From assembly GCA_028281635.1 (NCBI GenBank), contig JANQJM010000010.1, positions 1-44,142 of the forward strand: DNA of 44,142 bases, in the 5' to 3' direction. Of the stretch, positions 253-11,000 are shown one piece after another. The notes under the pieces were generated by a model. It was not told the DNA's origin and made no database searches. It saw only the letters and a program-made list of their open reading frames with translations. The translations under genes and the position numbers were made by a program. Position 1 is the first letter of the stretch. The number at the start of each line of letters is the position of its first letter. Source of the DNA: Pseudomonadales bacterium (GTDB lineage Bacteria > Pseudomonadota > Gammaproteobacteria > Pseudomonadales > Pseudohongiellaceae).

Positions 253-1341
253 TCACTTAAAAGCCTTATCAAGCATAAAAACTTGCCATGGTAAATAAAA
301 GCGATTTAGCCTGATTTCGGACATTGCTGACACTTTCTCTTCTTTAGTAGTTAAATAATCGAACGCGGACATCCCTCCGAGAATAGTGGCAATACTGTTC
401 TTTATTTCCCCATCAAGTGGAGACATAAATACCAAGGAAGCCGATAAAAATTTCAGAAGAAAATAAATATCTCTCCGACGATACATTTTCTGAATGTGCT
501 TGAAACGCTCGTGAAGTTCACGAACTCCTTCGTCAACCTCGCGCAGGTATTTAAGAATCGTGATTTCGCTGTCGGTCTGTGACGCATTGTGGAGCATATT
601 CTGTATGCGCCGTTGAAATTCTTGATACAATTCTGACTCTTTGTTCCTAATTTCTACTATTCGCTCCATTTCGATGTTAGTAAAATGAGGTAATAACAAG
701 TTGGATAAGCCTGAAGACCTTCGAGCAAGGTTAGGATACTCCTCAGTTTCATCAAACTGTTTTTTTAACTCCTCCAACTCAAAATTTGCGGATGTTAACT
801 TTAATTTCTTCTTGTGAAATTTCTGACCCGGAAAAAGAGGAACAATATGAGATATTCCTAGACGCATCGCTTGCTGCAGTTCAAAAATCAAATCAAGTAA
901 TTCGTCAAAAGCGAGCTTATCTAGCACATATGCTCGAGACTCATTGAAAAAGGTTGTTCCATGCGTTTTCCGAGATTTACGCATTCTTCTTGCAAAATAA
1001 ACCTCCCCATCATCCCTTGTCTCCGGTGCCTCCACAAATGGAAATGAGACATAAGTGCGGTTCGCATAGAAACAAGACTTCTTTAAAAAAGTTGATGTTG
1101 GGATGTTTGAACGCTGAGATAGCTCACAATCTGTACTAAAGTGAAATTTCATTCCTCCGACTTGACTTGCATCCTTCATTGCCCCAACAAAATTGCGCTC
1201 AAAAGCTTTGTAAAGGCGACTGACGAACATATGTTTGGCATCTATGGGGAGTCTGTGGTAATCCTCCTTGCTTGACAATTCAAAAGCATCAAGAAGCTCT
1301 AGTATTTTAGTATTTGGTTCGATGGTAGGTGATATTGTCAT
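253..1341 (-). CDS. Hypothetical protein, 362 aa
   Basis: I do not recognise this protein. The ATG at 1341 is preferred over a TTG at 1356 that would add five residues; neither has a clear Shine-Dalgarno site. The sequence is rich in charged residues with a basic middle (about residues 115-130 and 195-205), a likely helical stretch rich in Glu/Arg/Lys at about 225-290, and one moderately hydrophobic segment near residues 295-335 that could be membrane-associated or a buried helix. There is no signal peptide and no recognisable catalytic motif. It stands alone on the minus strand, with 252 bases of non-coding sequence on one side and about 390 on the other. Sitting beside a decayed defence locus and an IS remnant, it may be part of the accessory region. 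The ORF is long and intact, so I think it is a real gene of unknown function. Confidence 0.7.
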   Translation of the reverse strand: MTISPTIEPNTKILELLDAFELSSKEDYHRLPIDAKHMFVSRLYKAFERNFVGAMKDASQVGGMKFHFSTDCELSQRSNIPTSTFLKKSCFYANRTYVSFPFVEAPETRDDGEVYFARRMRKSRKTHGTTFFNESRAYVLDKLAFDELLDLIFELQQAMRLGISHIVPLFPGQKFHKKKLKLTSANFELEELKKQFDETEEYPNLARRSSGLSNLLLPHFTNIEMERIVEIRNKESELYQEFQRRIQNMLHNASQTDSEITILKYLREVDEGVRELHERFKHIQKMYRRRDIYFLLKFLSASLVFMSPLDGEIKNSIATILGGMSAFDYLTTKEEKVSAMSEIRLNRFYLPWQVFMLDKAFK

Positions 1342-1733
1342 GTAAAGTAAAATCAACTACTTTTTTGATTTTCCTATCTGTTTAGTAACTGCGTGTTGAG
1401 TCAACCTCAGTATTTATACTTCAATCCTGGGTATCACGAAAAGCCAAATTGATTATGGATAATAATCCCAATCGCGTTTCCTATTTTTCTGCTCAGTAAT
1501 GTTCATTTTGGGTCGAGCTCGGCCTATTAAATTAGTGCCACGAGAGCTTAAATTCTCTCAGATTGAGCGTCGCCTATGGGTCGGAATGTAGCCTTATCCG
1601 CTCAATGCCATTAGGAGACATTCCGCAACTAGAAGCAAGAACCGGGCATATGTTTCTAGATGCAGGGGTTGTTAACCTTTTAGACTCCTAATTCATCTAA
1701 AGTCAAAGTAGTTTTAGAGCTAGGGATATTTTC
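1342..1733. other. Gap without a convincing gene
   Basis: About 390 bases follow the start of the minus-strand gene. A 28-codon open stretch (1605-1691, plus strand) has no ribosome binding site, and I do not call it. I see no terminator, tRNA or repeat that I would defend. The stretch presumably contains the promoter for the minus-strand gene and the one for the small ORFs to the right. Confidence 0.4.
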
Positions 1734-2896: not shown

Positions 2897-3315
2897 AACA
2901 TTTTTCAATCACGAAGTTATTTGCAACAACGGCGATGCTCGTTGCCTCCCAGCAAGCTCTCGCACTCAGTGTGTCATGCGGGCACAACGTTAGCTTCGGC
3001 GGGATGACAAGCACCGGTCTAAACATCAGAACCATGACAGCGAGCGAACAGTCAAACTCAGTTTACTATGCTTACCTGCAACGCCTGACAATTACAGCCC
3101 CTAACTGCTGCAGTACCAGCGAAGACTTGGAAGAGCCGGATGCAACTGATTATCAATTAACAAGATCTACTTCAATAGCTTCCAATTTCTCGTATACGGC
3201 GCAATTTTCTGCGATTGTGGATCTGTTTGATGGAAGTACTTCACCTGCTACACATCTATTCGATGACACTTTTAGTTCAGCTTGTTGGGCGCCAGGAGTA
3301 GATGTGATCCCATAG
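2893..3315 (+). CDS. Exported small protein, 140 aa
   Basis: The start ATG overlaps the stop of the preceding gene (ATGA at 2893-2896), so coupled translation is likely. The N-terminus (MKHFSITKLFATTAML then SQQALA) is a clear signal peptide, cleaved after about residue 24. The mature part of about 115 residues has four cysteines (one near the N-terminus, a CysCys pair in the middle, one near the C-terminus), is rich in Ser and Thr, and looks like a beta-rich secreted protein. I do not recognise the family. Debris of a mobile element begins about 90 bases after its stop, so the original C-terminus or a further operon gene could have been lost. Its function is probably tied to the two-cysteine protein before it. 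Confidence 0.65.
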   Translation: MKHFSITKLFATTAMLVASQQALALSVSCGHNVSFGGMTSTGLNIRTMTASEQSNSVYYAYLQRLTITAPNCCSTSEDLEEPDATDYQLTRSTSIASNFSYTAQFSAIVDLFDGSTSPATHLFDDTFSSACWAPGVDVIP

Positions 3316-3402
3316 CTCGATCGCTTGAGCGTTCTTCGTTGCAGCATATGGACAGCAAGACTAACAGGCTGTTCATATGTACTCATTTTGAAGGCCGGCT
3401 GA

Positions 3403-4180
3403 GCTTTTGCGAGAGACTTGATCGAAGGAACTAGCCAGAAGGGAAAATTAGTGCACGCAACCGGTCGGTACTGTTTTCAACGCACTCTGCCGCCAACGGT
3501 TGAGCAGCTCCACTATTTACTGCACCAGATCAGTGAAAGAGTGGCCCGGTTTCTGGAACGAAGAGGTATTCTGGAAAGGGATGAGGATAACAGCTACCTC
3601 ACCCTGGACGGGTTGGAAGAAGGTCCGCTCAATGATATTCACAGCCACTCGGCCACCTACCGCGTGGCTATCGGTCCCAAGAAAGGCCGCAAAGTCTTTA
3701 CCCTGCAGACGACCCGCCACAACCTGAACCCACGCCCGATAACACACGGGTCGCTAAGCTAAACGGTTTCAGCCTGTATGCTGGCGTGGCCGCTCGGACT
3801 CATCAACGCAAGAAGCTGGAACGACTGTGCCGATACATAGCAAGGCCCGCCATTGCAGAAAAGCGCCTCTCCCTTACGCCCACCGGCAAGTTGCGTTATG
3901 AACTCAAAACCCCTTTCAGAAACGGTACCACCCATGTGATCTTCGAGCCGCTGGATTTTATCGCGAGATTGGCTGCCCTTGTTCCCAAGCCAAGAGTCAA
4001 CCTCACTCGCTTCCACGGGGTGTTCGCGCCCCGCAGAAAAATGCTCCTGCATTTTCTGAATACCGTCCATCCATGGACATAACAGCAAGTATCGTGCTCT
4101 GATCACACCCGCAGGCAGAGGCAAGGGGAGCAAGAAGTCTAATAAAGATGGGGATAACTGCAGCTTCGCCGAGCGCCAAT
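3403..4180 (+). pseudogene. IS91-family transposase remnant, N-terminally truncated and frameshifted
   Basis: Three frames together give the C-terminal half of an IS91-type (HUH rolling-circle) transposase. Segment one (3403 to about 3735) contains RFLERRGILERD and a GPKKGRKVFTLQT block. Segment two (about 3733-4031) has GFSLYAGVAARTHQRKK, the LCRYIARP block, NGTTHVIFEPLDFIARL and RFHGVFAP. Segment three (4081-4180) has NSKYRALITPAGRGKG. A frameshift lies near 3730, and a 49-base insertion at 4032-4080 splits VFAP from NSKYRAL. The N-terminal part, where this family carries its zinc-binding and HUH residues, is missing, so the element cannot transpose by itself. The order of blocks is that of family members I remember; I have not aligned it. 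The right end abuts what looks like the tail of an Argonaute-associated gene, so the element probably inserted there. Confidence 0.85.
4032..4080. repeat. 49-bp palindromic miniature insertion inside the transposase remnant
   Basis: Exactly 49 bases interrupt the transposase coding sequence between the Pro codon ending at 4031 and the Asn codon at 4081. They contain two inverted repeats: CAGAAAAATGC (4034-4044) with GCATTTTCTG (4049-4058), differing by one base, and GTCCAT (4065-4070) with ATGGAC (4073-4078) around CC. The double-hairpin layout resembles the short palindromic intergenic repeats of many gammaproteobacteria (REP or nemis-like). No second copy was seen in this window. Confidence 0.55.
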
Positions 4181-4336
4181 GATGTTCTAGATGGGATTCT
4201 TACTGTCTGGCTGTCTACTGTTGTTGGTTCTGCAGAAAAGAAAAGTCTAAATTTGGTCACGTATAAGGATGCAGGGCAGTTCGGAAAGGCCGAATTTCAA
4301 CTACTAACTCGTACTTCATATTCGAAAAGGGGGTAA
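4181..4336 (+). pseudogene. C-terminal remnant of a lost gene, probably the Argonaute partner
   Basis: From about 4181 the transposase similarity stops, and one frame is open for about 50 codons to TAA at 4334-4336. It ends 3 bases before the probable start of the Argonaute pseudogene. Short prokaryotic Argonautes are normally encoded directly downstream of, and coupled to, an effector-APAZ protein (Sir2, TIR or nuclease domain fused to APAZ). Position and spacing therefore suggest that this is the last part of such an APAZ protein, with the rest displaced by the IS91 element. The fragment contains the stretch YKDAGQFGKAEFQLL, which does not look like IS91. I cannot confirm APAZ homology by eye; this is inference from context. 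Confidence 0.4.
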
Positions 4337-4339
4337 AGG

Positions 4340-5742
4340 TTGGTGTAAATAAGTCGATCACTATCAGGCCATTCTCACTTACAAGAACCAGACTTGCTTT
4401 TTGACAACAACTAGAAGGATCGAAATCCCCTTCGCGGCATACTGCAGTTCGGCCCGTACAGCGCTTCGCTGAATTTGTGGTCAGAAATCAAAATAGCGTT
4501 TCTTTGCACTATTGAAAATCAAAGAGATATTCAATCAATTTTCAATGAGCTTCGCAGCCCAGCGAAAACTAAAGATGCGCCTGATTACTACCCGGATTAC
4601 CCTGGATTTGAGAACGTCTTCAGAGTTCCGCTCGCGGCCGCTGCACAAGGTGTTAATAGAATCCTTCCCGGCGAATTGGGCGAACTTGCTTATGAAGGCA
4701 AACATTTAGAGCTAGGAAGGAAACTGGCAGAGCTGCTAGTTCAGATGAAGTCACAGCGATCGAATTTTGATGTGGTGATGATACTTTTACCTGATGAATG
4801 GGCAGATTGTTTCAATGTCGAGGATTCGATCTACACAATTATCTAAAGGCATTCTGCGCACCTGCGGGGGTGCCCTTTCAGATAATTACAAGGACGGCAA
4901 TGACAAGATCCTGCAGGTCAAATGTGATGTGGGGATTAAGCATTGCCTTGTATTCGAAAGCAAATGGAATTCCGTGGAAACTTCCAACTATAAACCCGAA
5001 CGAAGTGTTTATCGGCATTAGTTACGCACTGAAGACCAGTGAAGGAGAGTCAAACTACTTCACATGCTGTAGCCAAATCATTGAACCGGATGGACTTGAA
5101 TTTGAATTTGTCGCCTACGACGCAAGAATCGATGAGGTAGATAGAGCCAAAAATCCATACTTATCTCGCGAACAGATGCAAGCAATACTGTTGAAGAGTT
5201 TGCAGGTTTACAAACGAAATCACTACGGGCGGGGACCAAAGAAAATTACGGTTCACAAAAAGACGCATTTTACTGAGGCAGAAATAGCTGGCGCACTAGA
5301 TAGTTTCAGCGAAGAAACTGAAGTTGAGCTAGTTCAAGTGATTGATAGAGCACCTGTCTTAGGATTAAAATGGAGGAACAACCGGGCTGATGGGTATGGA
5401 GTACCGCGAGGAACGTATCTGCCTATTTCGCAAGATGAAGCCTTGTTGTGGACACAGGGGCCAAATACAGGTGCTAGTTTAAGCAGTTCTCATAAGCAAC
5501 TCTACAAGGATTTCGTATTTGCCCCAACGCCTAAACCTGTTTTGCTTAGGCGGTTTTCCGGGAATGGAGGCTGGCATGAAACGTGCCATAGCATAATGGG
5601 TCTCACCAAAATGGACTGGAATAACAATACTCTCCATAAAAAAATGCCTGCAACTCTGGAGTATTCAGATAGGTTCGCACAAATCATTAAACAGAACCCA
5701 GAAATGGTAAATCAGGAATATGATATTCGTTGTTTTTTCTAG
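4340..5742 (+). pseudogene. Short prokaryotic Argonaute (MID-PIWI), inactivated
   Basis: The reading frame from TTG at 4340 is interrupted by TAA (4346) and TAG (4412), then shifts by one base near 4820-4825. Repairing these gives about 467 codons, the usual size of a short pAgo. The N-terminus has LQEPDLLF, then GILQFGPYSASLN, then PDYPGFENVF, which matches the start of known short pAgos as I remember them. The MID part has FDLHNYLKA, and the PIWI part has WGLSIALYSKANGIPWKL, FIGISYAL, KKITVHKKTHF, RGTYLP, WHETC and KMDWNNNTL, with a C-terminal IRCFF. In catalytic Argonautes the first two Asp of the DEDX tetrad lie in the GID and the R-D-G positions. Here they are Ser (GISY) and Lys (VHKK), so the protein was of the non-slicing type even before decay. 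Such proteins bind guide RNA and target DNA and activate a partner that depletes NAD or degrades DNA. The last part (4798-5742) is still open. Confidence 0.87.
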
Positions 5743-5917
5743 CAATAGATATTGATCTCAATAATTTGCCTAGATTTCCAGCAAACCCAAATGGGGCAGG
5801 CTTAGATTCAGAGTACTGCTGGAAGCGGAAAATTACTGCGTTTGGTGATTCACCAAAAATATTGAAAGCAAATGGTTTCCTGAGTTACCAGGAGAGTAAT
5901 GAAAAACTACTGTAGTT

Positions 5918-6505
5918 TCATTGACTATTTACTACGTTAGAAACTTGCTCTTTAAAGTTCTGTAATATGTCTGACTCCCCACCTTGATTTTCAATGCTAT
6001 ATGATAAAAATCTTCTATATTGTTCTTCGTCCAAGTATCTCTCCATTATTCGAGCCGGAGTAAGGCTTGGCGCGACTTCGTAAAATCTATTGAGTTCTTT
6101 TTGGTTTACTTCTGCTCTTGAGAAATCAATCAAATCTCCACTCATTGATTCCAACTCCTCATTGTTAAGCGCAAGTTCCATAAATATCTGATCTTTCATA
6201 GATTCATCCAGGCCAAGCTCATCGATAAAATTGCCATACTCCAAATAAACTTGTTCTACATGCACGGGCTTAGGCTCTCGAGTGTTTGATATAGAATTTT
6301 GAGCCTGAAATCTTGGTGAGGTATTGATCGCAGATACTTGTGAATTGTCCTCACTAGAGGATGTGCGTCTTGAAGGGCTTACATTAGAAGATCCTTCAAC
6401 AGAAATAGACCTCTGTTCAAATTCAGTACTTATGTCATTGTTTAGATACGTATGCGAAATAATCGCCAAGCTAATCAGAGCTACAAAACTTAGTAAAACT
6501 TTCAT
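5918..6505 (-). CDS. Membrane-anchored hypothetical protein, 195 aa
   Basis: I choose the ATG at 6505 because MKVLLSFVALISLAI then forms a normal signal anchor or signal peptide. A longer reading to 6556 would place 17 unlikely residues in front and overlap the zinc-ribbon ORF. The start overlaps the stop of that ORF (ATGA). After the membrane segment comes a Ser/Thr/Asn-rich linker (about residues 22-85) and a helical acidic domain (about 90-190) containing LGLDESMKDQI and YLDEEQYRRFLSY. These resemble the L-x-L-(D/S)-x-x-Q pattern of helical periplasmic proteins without placing it in a family. There are no cysteines. Its tail ends 176 bases from the end of the Argonaute pseudogene on the opposite strand. 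Function unknown. Confidence 0.65.
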   Translation of the reverse strand: MKVLLSFVALISLAIISHTYLNNDISTEFEQRSISVEGSSNVSPSRRTSSSEDNSQVSAINTSPRFQAQNSISNTREPKPVHVEQVYLEYGNFIDELGLDESMKDQIFMELALNNEELESMSGDLIDFSRAEVNQKELNRFYEVAPSLTPARIMERYLDEEQYRRFLSYSIENQGGESDILQNFKEQVSNVVNSQ

Positions 6506-6618
6506 TTTTTGTCCCAAATTCGACGTCGTCTGTGCTTGGCCCCACAATTTGGGCATTTGTAACGACCATCAGAGAGCCTCTGAGCCCCGTATTTACAGCA
6601 TTTTTTACATTTCGCCAT
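6502..6618 (-). CDS. Zinc-ribbon microprotein, 38 aa
   Basis: The ATG at 6618 opens 38 codons ending in TGA at 6504-6502, overlapping the next start by ATGA. The product has a CKKCC pair at residues 4-8 and a CPNCG pair near residue 23, a four-cysteine zinc ribbon, followed by a run of Arg (AKHRRRR) and IWDKK. That basic tail suggests nucleic-acid binding. A TATACT hexamer lies about 15 bases before the ATG, with no strong Shine-Dalgarno, so the message may be nearly leaderless. The alternative is a leftover of the N-terminal zinc ribbon of an IS1-like or IS1595-like transposase, where similar motifs occur. The perfect coupling to the downstream membrane protein favours a gene in use. Confidence 0.5.
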   Translation of the reverse strand: MAKCKKCCKYGAQRLSDGRYKCPNCGAKHRRRRIWDKK

Positions 6619-6965: not shown

Positions 6966-7069
6966 TCAATTGGCCTAGTTTCCTTTTTTAGAATATTGAA
7001 CAAATGTATAAAAAGGAATTAACGCCACTGAGTTCACCATAAACGACAGGTTTTTTGGGAGATGTTAAT

Positions 7070-7879
7070 GTGAAATATTTATTTATAGGATGTTTTACCC
7101 TATTAGCTGCAAGCATATATGCACAATCTGATGATTCATCGTTTAGTCAAGTGCGGTCACGCATTGGACTCCATTCTTCGGATCTAAGAACGGCATTCCA
7201 ATCGCTGCGCCACTCTGCTAGCCGAGACTCACAAGACTCTAGTGGACTGACTGAAACCGATCTTTTGCAGATCGAAGATGCTATTTATACGGTTGAACCA
7301 CATGTTAATGCGTCCGCGCCTTTGTTAGCTGCTTGTGACTATTTAAATTCAGCTGAGGAATCTGAATTGGATGCTGCCAAACTAGCAGCCTATCTGGCAG
7401 ATTCAGATCAAATCTACTACGAAACATTTATTTCCGTATACGAGAGAACTTTTAACGCCTTATCAGAGGTAGCTAAGGAAAGATACTTGGAGGGATTCGC
7501 ATCGAATGCTGTTCTAAATGGCAGAGGTCGACCCGGCGACATTCCTAGTGCTGACAAACTCTTCAGTATGCCTAATCAACAAAGTGAAGCTATTTTGAAC
7601 AAGTGGCTATCCATTGGGCCGGAGTTTATTCAACTGTTTGCCCACAACTGCACAGCCGAAGCGATTGAGCAAAGAATAGAAACAAATAGAAAACTAGAAG
7701 CAGGCGAAATTTCGCCTTATGCAGAAATCAGTATAGGAGAGAAGGAGCTAACCAATGCATTGCCTATCGGCGGGCGCGACGTTACTAGTCTGCTGCCAGG
7801 TCAAACAGCTGTATCAGACTGGAGCGAAATGCCGCAGGCGAGCAATCTTCTTCGATGGCTGTTAAACCAGCCTGTCTGA
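7070..7879 (+). CDS. Exported two-cysteine protein, 269 aa
   Basis: I choose GTG at 7070 rather than TTG at 7055. GGGAG (7057-7061) then lies 8 bases upstream, and the product starts MKYLFIGCFTLLAASIYA, a clean signal peptide cleaved before Gln. The mature part has exactly two cysteines, Cys89 (in AACDYL) and Cys194 (in AHNCTA), likely a disulfide. Order and spacing follow the protein at 2225-2896: an acidic helix before CDY, the NALSEVAKER segment 40 residues later, and a GPEFIQ segment just before the second Cys. No known family comes to mind. The last 95 bases overlap the end of the glycosyltransferase on the opposite strand, so its C-terminus may have been rebuilt by recombination at the edge of the accessory region. 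Confidence 0.7.
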   Translation: MKYLFIGCFTLLAASIYAQSDDSSFSQVRSRIGLHSSDLRTAFQSLRHSASRDSQDSSGLTETDLLQIEDAIYTVEPHVNASAPLLAACDYLNSAEESELDAAKLAAYLADSDQIYYETFISVYERTFNALSEVAKERYLEGFASNAVLNGRGRPGDIPSADKLFSMPNQQSEAILNKWLSIGPEFIQLFAHNCTAEAIEQRIETNRKLEAGEISPYAEISIGEKELTNALPIGGRDVTSLLPGQTAVSDWSEMPQASNLLRWLLNQPV

Positions 7880-10800
7880 TTTCATTCCACAACGCTTCGT
7901 CGTTATGCAGTCGCAGACACTGCCTGGCAAAATCTGTGGCGGTATCCGCACAGAGTAGTTGCTTCTCATCAGTCCAGTTCAATTGATTCGCTAATAGTGA
8001 AGTCGTCACTGTTGGTAGACCCATACTCGCGGCTTCGTGCACTTTATGTGGAATGCCAGCAGCGAATCGAGTGGGCGCGATAAACAAACGGCAGGAATTG
8101 TAGTACTCATCAATAGCCTCCAGGCGACCCGTAAACACCACATTATCTTTGGCAACGGTGGCGAGTGATGGCACAGTATTGTCTCCCACCACATAGAGAG
8201 TAAGCTGCGGGTCGCTGGCTTCGATGAGCGGCAGACAATTGATTAAGAACCACAACAAGGAATCCACATTAGGCGAACCTTCATCACGCAGTGCACCAAC
8301 AAACAACATGCCCTTGCGCTCGGGGAATGCTTTTTCTGTTGCATTGAGGTCCAGCCGATGACCGAGTACCGTGGTCTGCTCGATGCCGTGCTGGTGATAT
8401 AGCTCAGCTTCCTGCTCTGATACGGCAACTATACTTTGTGCTTCACTTGCCTGTTTTAATTCATCCGCAATTTCAGCGTGTTCTTCCTCACTACTGATCC
8501 GCTCGCCCCAAAGGCGCCTGCGGAGAATCTCGCGCGGTGCGGACACGGCTTCCGCGTCATAGATAACTTGCACATTTTTGAGCAGTTCCGGATGGTCGGC
8601 CACAACTTCATTAAAAATTGTCATATTGTGAACTCGGCTTACCATGATGGTTTGATAAAACCCTTGTCTTTCGCGCAAGAAGTCCAGTAAACCATTTCTT
8701 CCCATACCCATCGCGACTTCAATGTTTGGAGACAGTAGTTCATAGACTTCTTCCCAGTTATCAGAAGGAAAAAGCAATGGATAGAATGTGAGATTGACTG
8801 CTGTGGTGGCCAGGGTATTCAGGATATGTGAACAACGTGGGTAGCCGGCGCCCAGACTCGGGTATGGCACCCGATCATCGATTATCAGAATGTTGGGATG
8901 AGTGTTCGCTGTCCTGGCCTTGAGCACATTGGCGGGATGGTTGGCTAATCTGTTTTGTAGATAGTCGGGATGTTTGCCACAGAGAACATCGCGATGTTCT
9001 TGCTGCAATTTGCTGGCACCCGTGATGCCACCGGTACTGGCGAACTCATAATGGGTAATTTGGGCATTCGGTTCATATACGACTCGATAGCCTGCTTTAT
9101 GTAGACGAATGCAGAAATCTGATTCTTCGTAGTAAGCCGGTGCGAAGTCCTCATCGAAGCAGCCCAGCTCCCTGAACAGTGCGGTTTTCATTAGCAGAAA
9201 AGCGCCCGAGCAGTAATCCACATCGCGGCGCATCATAAATTGATAGGCCAGTGGGTCTTCGCCTCTTCCATAGCCGGCGCAGGCGCCATCGTTCCAGATA
9301 ATACTGCCGGCCTCTTGCATGGTCCCGTCGAGGAGTTTGATTTTCGCACCTACCGCCCCGATATCATTGGCAGTCCGGAGCGTGTCGAGGGCAGTGCTGA
9401 GAGTAGCGTCTTCCAACAGGGCGTCGTTGTTTAACAACAGCAGGTGTTCGCCAGTTGCCGCCGCCGCGGCCTGGTTTACCGCGTGTACGAATCCCACATT
9501 TGTCTCGTTGCGCAATATCTTTGCATTGTCGATTCTTTCCAGAAGTCGAGATGTGTCATCGCTGGATTTATTATCCACGATAATTACTTCATAGGACTTG
9601 TCCGCGTTTTCGACAATCGATTGCATACAAAGCAAACTCAGGTGAGCCTGGTTGTAAAACACCAACACGATAGAAATTTCCGCTTCGTCGGACGAGTTAA
9701 AACTCAGCCTCGAATTACTAATCAAGAATTCTGATAGTTTTTGTTTTGCAGCGGTGTCATGTGCTTGTTTGGAAATGGAGGGCGGTGCGCCAGCACCTGG
9801 ACCTTCACTCGTGGCTTCTGAATTTGTTGCTGATACATTTTGATGCGCCGGTTCAATGGCTTGCCTGCTTGTTCTGTGACCCAGAAACAGGTCTCTTAGG
9901 AACCGTAGTGGCAGGGTCATTCGCCAAAAAATCGATTGCTCGATGAGTCGGTGTGCTTCTTCCATGCGTGCTATATGCTCACGCAGCGCCGTATTCTCCT
10001 CTCTGAGCTGATGCGCTGCATTCGATGCACCAAGGGAAGCCACTGCCGGACTCGTTCCGACATTTCGCGTTTCTATTTCTGGTTCACTCACATTAGCGAA
10101 TAGTTTGCTGCCATTGCGAATAGTCTGAGAGAGACTCGTTTGAGAGTCTTTCTGTTTGACAACGAATTCTGGAAGACCTGATTCATAGTGCTTTGATTGA
10201 ACCAATTTGCTCCAGGTCTGTTGCACATAATCAAACTCTCGTTGAGCGCGAGTTCGATTTTCCGCCAGATTATCAGACTGACGCGACACTGATTCATGGT
10301 GGATCAGGCAGACCCCGGGGTGGAACAGGCTAGGCAGCCCTGCTTCGGCAAGACGCAGACAATAATCGACATCATTATAGGCAACGGCCAATTCTTTACT
10401 ATTGAATCCGCCAAATCGTTCAAAGACCTCGCGGCGAGTTAACAAGCACGCAGCGGTAACAGCAGGCACTACAAAAGGTTGCCCAAACCCCGATCTGGCG
10501 TAGAAATTCTGCGGCTCATTCAGCACAATGTGTTTGGCCAGCGACTGTTGGTCCAGAGCGATGCCACCATGTTGAATTGTTTTGTCGGGATACAATAGCA
10601 GGCAGCCAACCGCCCCCACATCATCTCTCTTCGCGATAGGGTAGAGTTGATCAAGCCAATCCGGATGTACCACTTCAATGTCATTATTGAGAAAACACAG
10701 GACGTCAGCCTTGGTGTGTTCAGCAGCAAAGTTATTCAGTGCGGAAAAATTAAACGGGTGGTTCCACTCTAAGACTCTGACCCTGGGCTCATTTTTCAGT

Positions 10801-11000
10801 GATTGAAAATAGTCGTGAGTGACTGGCTGTTCACTGCCATTGTCGATTATCAAAATATCGAAAGAGAGCTCAGTTAAAGTTGTCAGCAAACTCTCTACAC
10901 AGGGTTGCAAATACTCCAGCTTGTCACGGGTAGGAATGATGATTGTGCAAGCAATGGTGGAAGTATCACTCATCGCTTTATGCTTCTGACCTTGGTTCAT
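7785..11000 (-). CDS. Three-domain glycosyltransferase (GT2-GT2-GT4), 1071 aa
   Basis: This is a cytoplasmic enzyme that should add several sugars in succession to a surface polysaccharide or lipid-linked chain. Domain one (residues about 17-245) is a GT2 fold with the nucleotide-sugar loop and metal site in FLNNDIEVVHPDW, plus a C-terminal NDVDYCLRL acid motif. Residues about 330-372 form a short coiled coil and the FWRMTLPLRFLRD amphipathic segment. Domain two (about 441-660) is another GT2 with LLLLNNDALLED and EESDFCIRL. Domain three (about 703-1071) is GT4-like, with ILIIDDRVPYPSLGAGYPR and the sugar-nucleotide region around APTRFAAGIPHKVHEAASMGLP. It starts in an ATGA overlap with the preceding glycosyltransferase gene, so the two are co-translated; a Met at residue 10 is an alternative start. 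Acceptor and sugars cannot be told from the sequence. Confidence 0.9.
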   Translation of the reverse strand: MNQGQKHKAMSDTSTIACTIIIPTRDKLEYLQPCVESLLTTLTELSFDILIIDNGSEQPVTHDYFQSLKNEPRVRVLEWNHPFNFSALNNFAAEHTKADVLCFLNNDIEVVHPDWLDQLYPIAKRDDVGAVGCLLLYPDKTIQHGGIALDQQSLAKHIVLNEPQNFYARSGFGQPFVVPAVTAACLLTRREVFERFGGFNSKELAVAYNDVDYCLRLAEAGLPSLFHPGVCLIHHESVSRQSDNLAENRTRAQREFDYVQQTWSKLVQSKHYESGLPEFVVKQKDSQTSLSQTIRNGSKLFANVSEPEIETRNVGTSPAVASLGASNAAHQLREENTALREHIARMEEAHRLIEQSIFWRMTLPLRFLRDLFLGHRTSRQAIEPAHQNVSATNSEATSEGPGAGAPPSISKQAHDTAAKQKLSEFLISNSRLSFNSSDEAEISIVLVFYNQAHLSLLCMQSIVENADKSYEVIIVDNKSSDDTSRLLERIDNAKILRNETNVGFVHAVNQAAAAATGEHLLLLNNDALLEDATLSTALDTLRTANDIGAVGAKIKLLDGTMQEAGSIIWNDGACAGYGRGEDPLAYQFMMRRDVDYCSGAFLLMKTALFRELGCFDEDFAPAYYEESDFCIRLHKAGYRVVYEPNAQITHYEFASTGGITGASKLQQEHRDVLCGKHPDYLQNRLANHPANVLKARTANTHPNILIIDDRVPYPSLGAGYPRCSHILNTLATTAVNLTFYPLLFPSDNWEEVYELLSPNIEVAMGMGRNGLLDFLRERQGFYQTIMVSRVHNMTIFNEVVADHPELLKNVQVIYDAEAVSAPREILRRRLWGERISSEEEHAEIADELKQASEAQSIVAVSEQEAELYHQHGIEQTTVLGHRLDLNATEKAFPERKGMLFVGALRDEGSPNVDSLLWFLINCLPLIEASDPQLTLYVVGDNTVPSLATVAKDNVVFTGRLEAIDEYYNSCRLFIAPTRFAAGIPHKVHEAASMGLPTVTTSLLANQLNWTDEKQLLCADTATDFARQCLRLHNDEALWNEIRQAGLTAIEEDCSPAAFRSSLIQLFDLAAD

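Follow-up and report, generated by a model that had tools for sequence, protein, structure and literature searches.

Probable remains of a SPARSA defence locus, with a broken short Argonaute gene and the tail of its SIR2-APAZ partner, in a Pseudohongiellaceae bacterium

A 44,142-nucleotide stretch of a Pseudohongiellaceae draft genome (contig JANQJM010000010.1; here, the window) contains what we consider, with a probability of about 93%, to be a dead SPARSA locus, i.e. a SIR2-APAZ effector paired with a short prokaryotic Argonaute (short pAgo), in which the Argonaute (Ago) gene is broken and the effector is reduced to its tail. The remains adjoin one another on the forward strand: a remnant of an IS91-type (Y2) transposase (3493 to ~4177), the last ~53 residues of the SIR2-APAZ effector together with its stop codon (~4178 to 4336), and the Ago pseudogene (4343 to 5742). 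The locus is a dead example of an already known kind of system and leaves the knowledge of Argonautes unchanged.

Homology searches confirmed that positions 4343 to 5742 are a pseudogene of a short pAgo, as the preliminary description had proposed. An intact relative of 466 amino acids, P0001, gave two collinear and gapless tblastn matches in different frames (E reported as 0.0). Residues 3 to 160 aligned with positions 4349 to 4822 in one frame (80.4% identity, one TAG inside), and residues 157 to 466 aligned with positions 4810 to 5739 in another (85.2% identity); at the sequence level, such a two-frame match is far above chance. The pseudogene has a normal length, its 1,397 bases from 4343 to 5739 being one base short of 466 codons. 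Its N-terminal third (4343 to 4822, the MID side) carries stop codons, and its C-terminal two thirds (4825 to 5742, the rest of MID plus PIWI) are open and end in a natural stop codon. The MID and PIWI landmarks listed in the preliminary description are all present where it placed them. A protein search with the C-terminal piece returned 1,022 relatives at an E value of at most 0.001, and P0001 was the top match (85%) among the best 120 of the 1,022. In a FastTree phylogeny, the pseudogene pairs with P0001 (support 0.968) inside a clade of intact proteins. Thus, P0001 resembles the pseudogene in length, in its 80 to 85% identity over the whole gene and as its nearest neighbour in the tree, while differing from it in having an intact reading frame.

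The PADLOC pAgo_I model matched both the C-terminal piece (E = 5.7e-121) and the N-terminal piece (ORF 4475-4846; E = 1.4e-24). Among solved structures, the best match was PDB chain 8in8_C (E = 5.1e-113), followed at a distance by the next chain (E = 2e-16), and entry 8in8 also contains 8in8_B, a “Sir2 superfamily protein.” By the pAgo_I match and by this best solved relative, whose entry includes a Sir2 superfamily protein, the pseudogene is closest to an Ago that works with a SIR2-APAZ protein and is assigned by sequence to the SIR2-APAZ/Ago (SPARSA) type. We take 8in8 and the related PDB entries to be Geobacter proteins. Both the span and the end-to-end match to P0001 agree with a MID-PIWI Ago of ~470 residues without a PAZ domain, the absence of PAZ following from length and family. 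The Piwi profile (PF02171), which had been suggested as a check, gave only a weak match to the pseudogene (E = 6.6e-5; 22.7 bits, under the cut-off of 28.9), and it was the PADLOC and 8in8_C matches that proved decisive. The Pfam test would have misled here, since intact P0001 and P0003 also lack any Pfam match at an E value of at most 0.001.

No full-length Ago can be translated from the locus, as two stop codons and one frame change interrupt it. When placed against P0001, the TAA at 4346 occupies the position of the second codon, the TAG at 4412 that of about codon 24, and the frame change at 4820 to 4826, a net change of one base at which the P0001 matches switch frame, that of codon ~161. 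The two stops and the single frameshift across which a short pAgo of normal length had been read are thus located on an intact homologue; it may be added that the first stop is not deep in the gene but at its codon 2. All three lesions do fall in the N-terminal third (none beyond codon ~161 of 466), as had been noted, but this is weak evidence, as by simple proportion the chance of it is about 0.04. Programmed frameshifting or recoding was considered and rejected, because the gene contains two stops as well as the shift, relatives that are intact use a single frame, and the rest of the window is mostly open in the standard code.

Could the three lesions be sequencing or assembly errors in an intact orphan Ago that has no SIR2 effector? 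The Ago is otherwise well preserved, one of the lesions is a one-base frame change, which is a common type of error, and a locus of Ruegeria denitrificans (L025, see below) demonstrates that an intact Ago can stand beside a mere SIR2-APAZ tail. This explanation nevertheless needs three separate errors to have fallen within 1.4 kb, and two of these to have produced in-frame stops. Open stretches of at least 150 codons on either strand cover 93% of positions 7001 to 44142 versus 36% of positions 3300 to 5900, the adjoining transposase is broken as well, and the effector is absent whatever the lesions are. That a contig which is otherwise clean should hold three errors in a single gene, beside a missing partner, is unlikely, although any one of the lesions taken singly may be an assembly error; we regard an intact orphan Ago as highly improbable.

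The view that the gene was inactivated fairly recently found indirect support. In an alignment of the pseudogene with 112 relatives of at least 455 amino acids, taken from the best 120 of the 1,022, there are 124 near-invariant columns (each at least 97% conserved); the pseudogene departs from them at 3 (2.4%), P0001 at 4 and P0002 at 2. One of the three departures is residue 466, where P0001 likewise has F. The 112 intact proteins depart at a mean of 0.9%, 11 of them reach the rate of the pseudogene, and the nearest relatives, P0001 to P0006, show 2 to 11 departures. Changes found only in the pseudogene versus only in P0001 numbered 30:16 when the reference was P0002, which the tree places as the nearest outgroup (p = 0.054, a borderline excess in the pseudogene), and 19:21, 16:22 and 16:28 with P0003, P0004 and P0006, respectively; the FastTree branch is 0.147 for the pseudogene versus 0.091 for P0001. 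Taken together, these values suggest at most a mild relaxation of constraint. Since the Ago is well preserved apart from its lesions, inactivation was probably recent, although such little amino acid decay is compatible with sequence errors as well as with recent loss. With about 3.9% of random substitutions being nonsense changes, two of the latter could have accompanied any number of substitutions between a few and many tens, so that no date can be given.

The open C-terminal ORF (4798 to 5742, 314 amino acids) is well conserved, and one might suppose that its product, a PIWI-rich fragment, is made and has taken on a new function; the consulted excerpt of one paper mentions six short pAgos that lack a MID domain (PMC6299218). 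The N-terminal stretch is preserved too, however: the pseudogene is 80% versus 86% identical to P0001 in the two parts, and the corresponding values between P0001 and P0002 are 64% versus 82%. Recency is therefore a better explanation of the open C-terminal part than selection acting only there. A promoter scan of positions 3300 to 6000 returned one site (5342 to 5371; 3.7 expected by chance), and no ribosome-binding sequence before 4798 was obvious by eye. A functional fragment is, in our estimation, extremely unlikely.

A remnant of the SIR2-APAZ partner just upstream of the Ago had been overlooked in the preliminary description. ORF 4148-4336 matches the PADLOC model Aga_SIR2-PNTD1-PNTD2 at positions 476 to 522 of the 524-position profile (E = 2.2e-4). 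When the upstream partners of relatives were used as tblastn queries (57 queries), this tail accounted for 32 of the alignments among the best 60 matches. Their E values run from 4e-6 to 0.19 and are at most 0.001 for 10 of the 32. Most of them (23) begin at 4178, but 3 begin at 4196, and 6, including the best match (E = 4e-6), reach upstream of 4178, so that the precise beginning of the tail is soft. The stop codon of the tail ends 6 bases upstream of the Ago start position. The difference between the projected Ago start and the end of the partner is mostly within 10 bases of zero in relatives and is 7 in the window, which places the tail in its usual position. What is found directly upstream on the same strand is therefore the last ~53 residues only; the other ~530, which include the entire SIR2 domain and make up ~90% of the partner, are missing from the locus. 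Neither a SIR2_2 gene elsewhere nor a second Ago was found in the host assembly, a 4.24-Mb draft in 257 contigs; at a completeness of 85.8%, an effector located elsewhere could be missed.

The gene upstream of Ago was surveyed in 62 loci from genome contigs and 1 locus from viral contigs encoding Ago relatives. A same-strand ORF lies just upstream of Ago in 57 of the 63 loci. With three of these set aside (L025, L058 and L059, the partner of L059 being nearly complete by tblastn), the other 54 end in similar tails, some of them clipped by a contig edge. All four partners of the 54 that were scanned with PADLOC are SIR2-APAZ proteins (SIR2-PNTD), and the one compared with the PDB, from L005, matches the “Sir2 superfamily protein” 8in8_B (E = 1e-146).

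Upstream of the tail, ORF 3786-4082 matches the Y2 transposase domain characteristic of the IS91 family (PF04986, Y2_Tnp; E = 4.7e-22), the sole PF04986 match in its own genome. The 441-codon open frame of the transposase at L075 aligned by tblastx with positions 3493 to 3711, 3756 to 4040 and 4081 to 4134 in changing frames. Beyond 4134, the transposase reading was traced by eye, unscored, to ~4177; from there on, the sequence reads as the SIR2-APAZ tail in a different frame. The transposase is thus incomplete, with both ends of the coding sequence absent and the frame broken. Inside the remnant and between two of its pieces lies a 53-bp repeat (4030 to 4082), which has two further copies in the genome, one whole (G000:C95:14664-14716, 53 bp at 87% identity) and one partial (C156:9980-10023, 44 bp at 86%). 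One half of the repeat is hairpin-like and the other resembles “CCATCCATGG”; the hairpin letters differ in the other two copies.

The broken transposase, the fused tail and the Ago lesions mean that several events hit the region: arrival and decay of a transposon, its fusion with the effector gene by deletion or recombination, and point lesions in Ago. We propose that a rearrangement joined the transposase remnant to the SIR2-APAZ gene; the fusion itself is present in the sequence, and its origin would lie in this event. In the same step, the SIR2 domain would have been lost entirely and APAZ for the most part, so that only the last ~53 codons remained. Then, or about then, the Ago gene would have gained the two nonsense mutations and the frame change seen today, the order of events being the conjectural part. 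With no NADase domain, almost no APAZ and no full-length Ago, the locus is most likely without function. It captures cleanly how an abortive-infection defence is lost, with the killing subunit nearly erased and the sensor still readable, in keeping with the notion that the part which is toxic and costly is the one discarded. Inspection just outside a broken gene is enough to find such a partner tail and its junction with a mobile element. The expectation that annotation pipelines would miss the system held insofar as no complete system is visible, but a PADLOC scan of the translated ORFs does flag the Ago fragment.

Broken Ago copies are not rare among the relatives. The Ago reading is open over at least 431 residues in 54 of the 62 genome loci; because these loci were chosen by pattern matches, the proportion of broken copies is no rate. 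Among the eight exceptions, L037 has one internal stop, L052 and L059 have a frame change, L054 starts at a contig end, and in L058, L060, L062 and L063 the C-terminal part alone matches. In R. denitrificans CECT 5091 (L025:7288-8945), an intact short pAgo of 472 amino acids follows a SIR2-APAZ gene cut to its last ~55 residues, and this tail overlaps the end of an Integrase_2 ORF. In a hand-chosen alignment of 27 tails (A1), both the window and L025 are without the usual RRxxR stretch before an invariant N, which places the two cuts within a few codons of each other; the L025 tail extends seven codons upstream of the N by tblastn. L025 therefore parallels the window in its cut point and in the joining of a mobile-element gene, and it differs in having an intact Ago and a mobile gene of another kind.

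It is tempting to imagine that the loss of the toxic part of SIR2-APAZ genes favours one point, just before a conserved NxxxxxLLxAW motif, and leaves a mini-partner of ~55 residues, and that such “disarmed” pairs are recurrent, perhaps kept briefly for a non-killing role of Ago before Ago decays. A profile built from the 27 tails found 13 short proteins with scattered starts in a large protein set; one of them (P0247) starts at the same N, and 8 of the 13 come from clusters whose longest contig is shorter than 2,000 bases. These free-standing tails add no support, and the preferred cut point is a weak lead founded on two cases, the window and L025, found after the fact. We consider the mini-partner scenario very doubtful.

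None of the 96 other genomes searched (60 of the same genus and 36 of the same order) carries the Ago, which fits horizontal gain; for pAgos in general, such gain has been reported (PMC2743648, consulted excerpt). The locus was probably acquired horizontally and would now be in the course of being lost. Its host would be Pseudohongiella-like to judge from a single protein, the DUF484 protein of the window, which is up to 94% identical to its closest relatives; those of its best 120 relatives that bear an organism name belong to Pseudomonadales, Gammaproteobacteria, Pseudohongiellaceae, Pseudohongiella and the SAR86 cluster. No empty site was found in relatives, and none is comparable, because the neighbours of the locus are nearly absent from them: the gene at 253 to 1356 has a match in 0 of 96 genomes, that at 7070 to 7879 in 1 of 96 (a 39-residue fragment) and that at 5918 to 6556 in 1 of 37 (weak). 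Relatives of the C-terminal piece occur in 95 plasmid records, all below 60% identity, and the single locus on viral contigs is truncated at the contig edge.

Neither Rfam nor tRNA scanning gave a match in the window. Among 10 proteins from the 19- to 36-kb region, PADLOC matched 3, weakly or generically, and showed no further Ago-type gene. The gene at 253 to 1356 (reverse strand) encodes a 367-amino-acid protein without a Pfam, NCBIfam or PADLOC family at an E value of at most 0.001. The predicted proteins at 2225 to 2896 and 7070 to 7879 (forward strand), which flank the pseudogene, show weak mutual similarity (26% over 119 residues, E = 0.002); neither has an NCBIfam family, and the former lacks a Pfam match at an E value of at most 0.001. 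The 1,071-amino-acid protein at 7785 to 11000 (reverse strand) is apparently a fusion of glycosyltransferase domains, several models of which match separate parts, all below curated cut-offs.

We found no description of a SPARSA pseudogene in the titles and abstract openings of the papers retrieved on short pAgo, APAZ and defence-system pseudogenes, and a search on Argonaute in Pseudohongiella retrieved no paper. According to the consulted excerpt of the PADLOC server paper, a pseudogene annotation is common for putative defence genes and may reflect either an error of sequencing or assembly or the relic of a system that has been inactivated (PMC9252829). The present locus is the same class of case, and that excerpt gives no SPARSA example. 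In the SPARSA of Geobacter sulfurreducens (GsSir2/pAgo), as described in the excerpted text of PMC10781750, Ago with a guide RNA senses target DNA, whereupon the SIR2 NADase is switched on and NAD+ is drained, with guide RNA and target DNA binding both Ago and the APAZ domain. The likeness lies in a short MID-PIWI Ago of the same family as the pseudogene and in the SIR2-APAZ gene directly upstream, as in the relatives of the pseudogene. Unlike the Geobacter system, the locus described here is without the SIR2 domain and ~90% of the partner, and its Ago carries two stops and a frame change; guide-RNA-directed NADase activity would not be expected from it.
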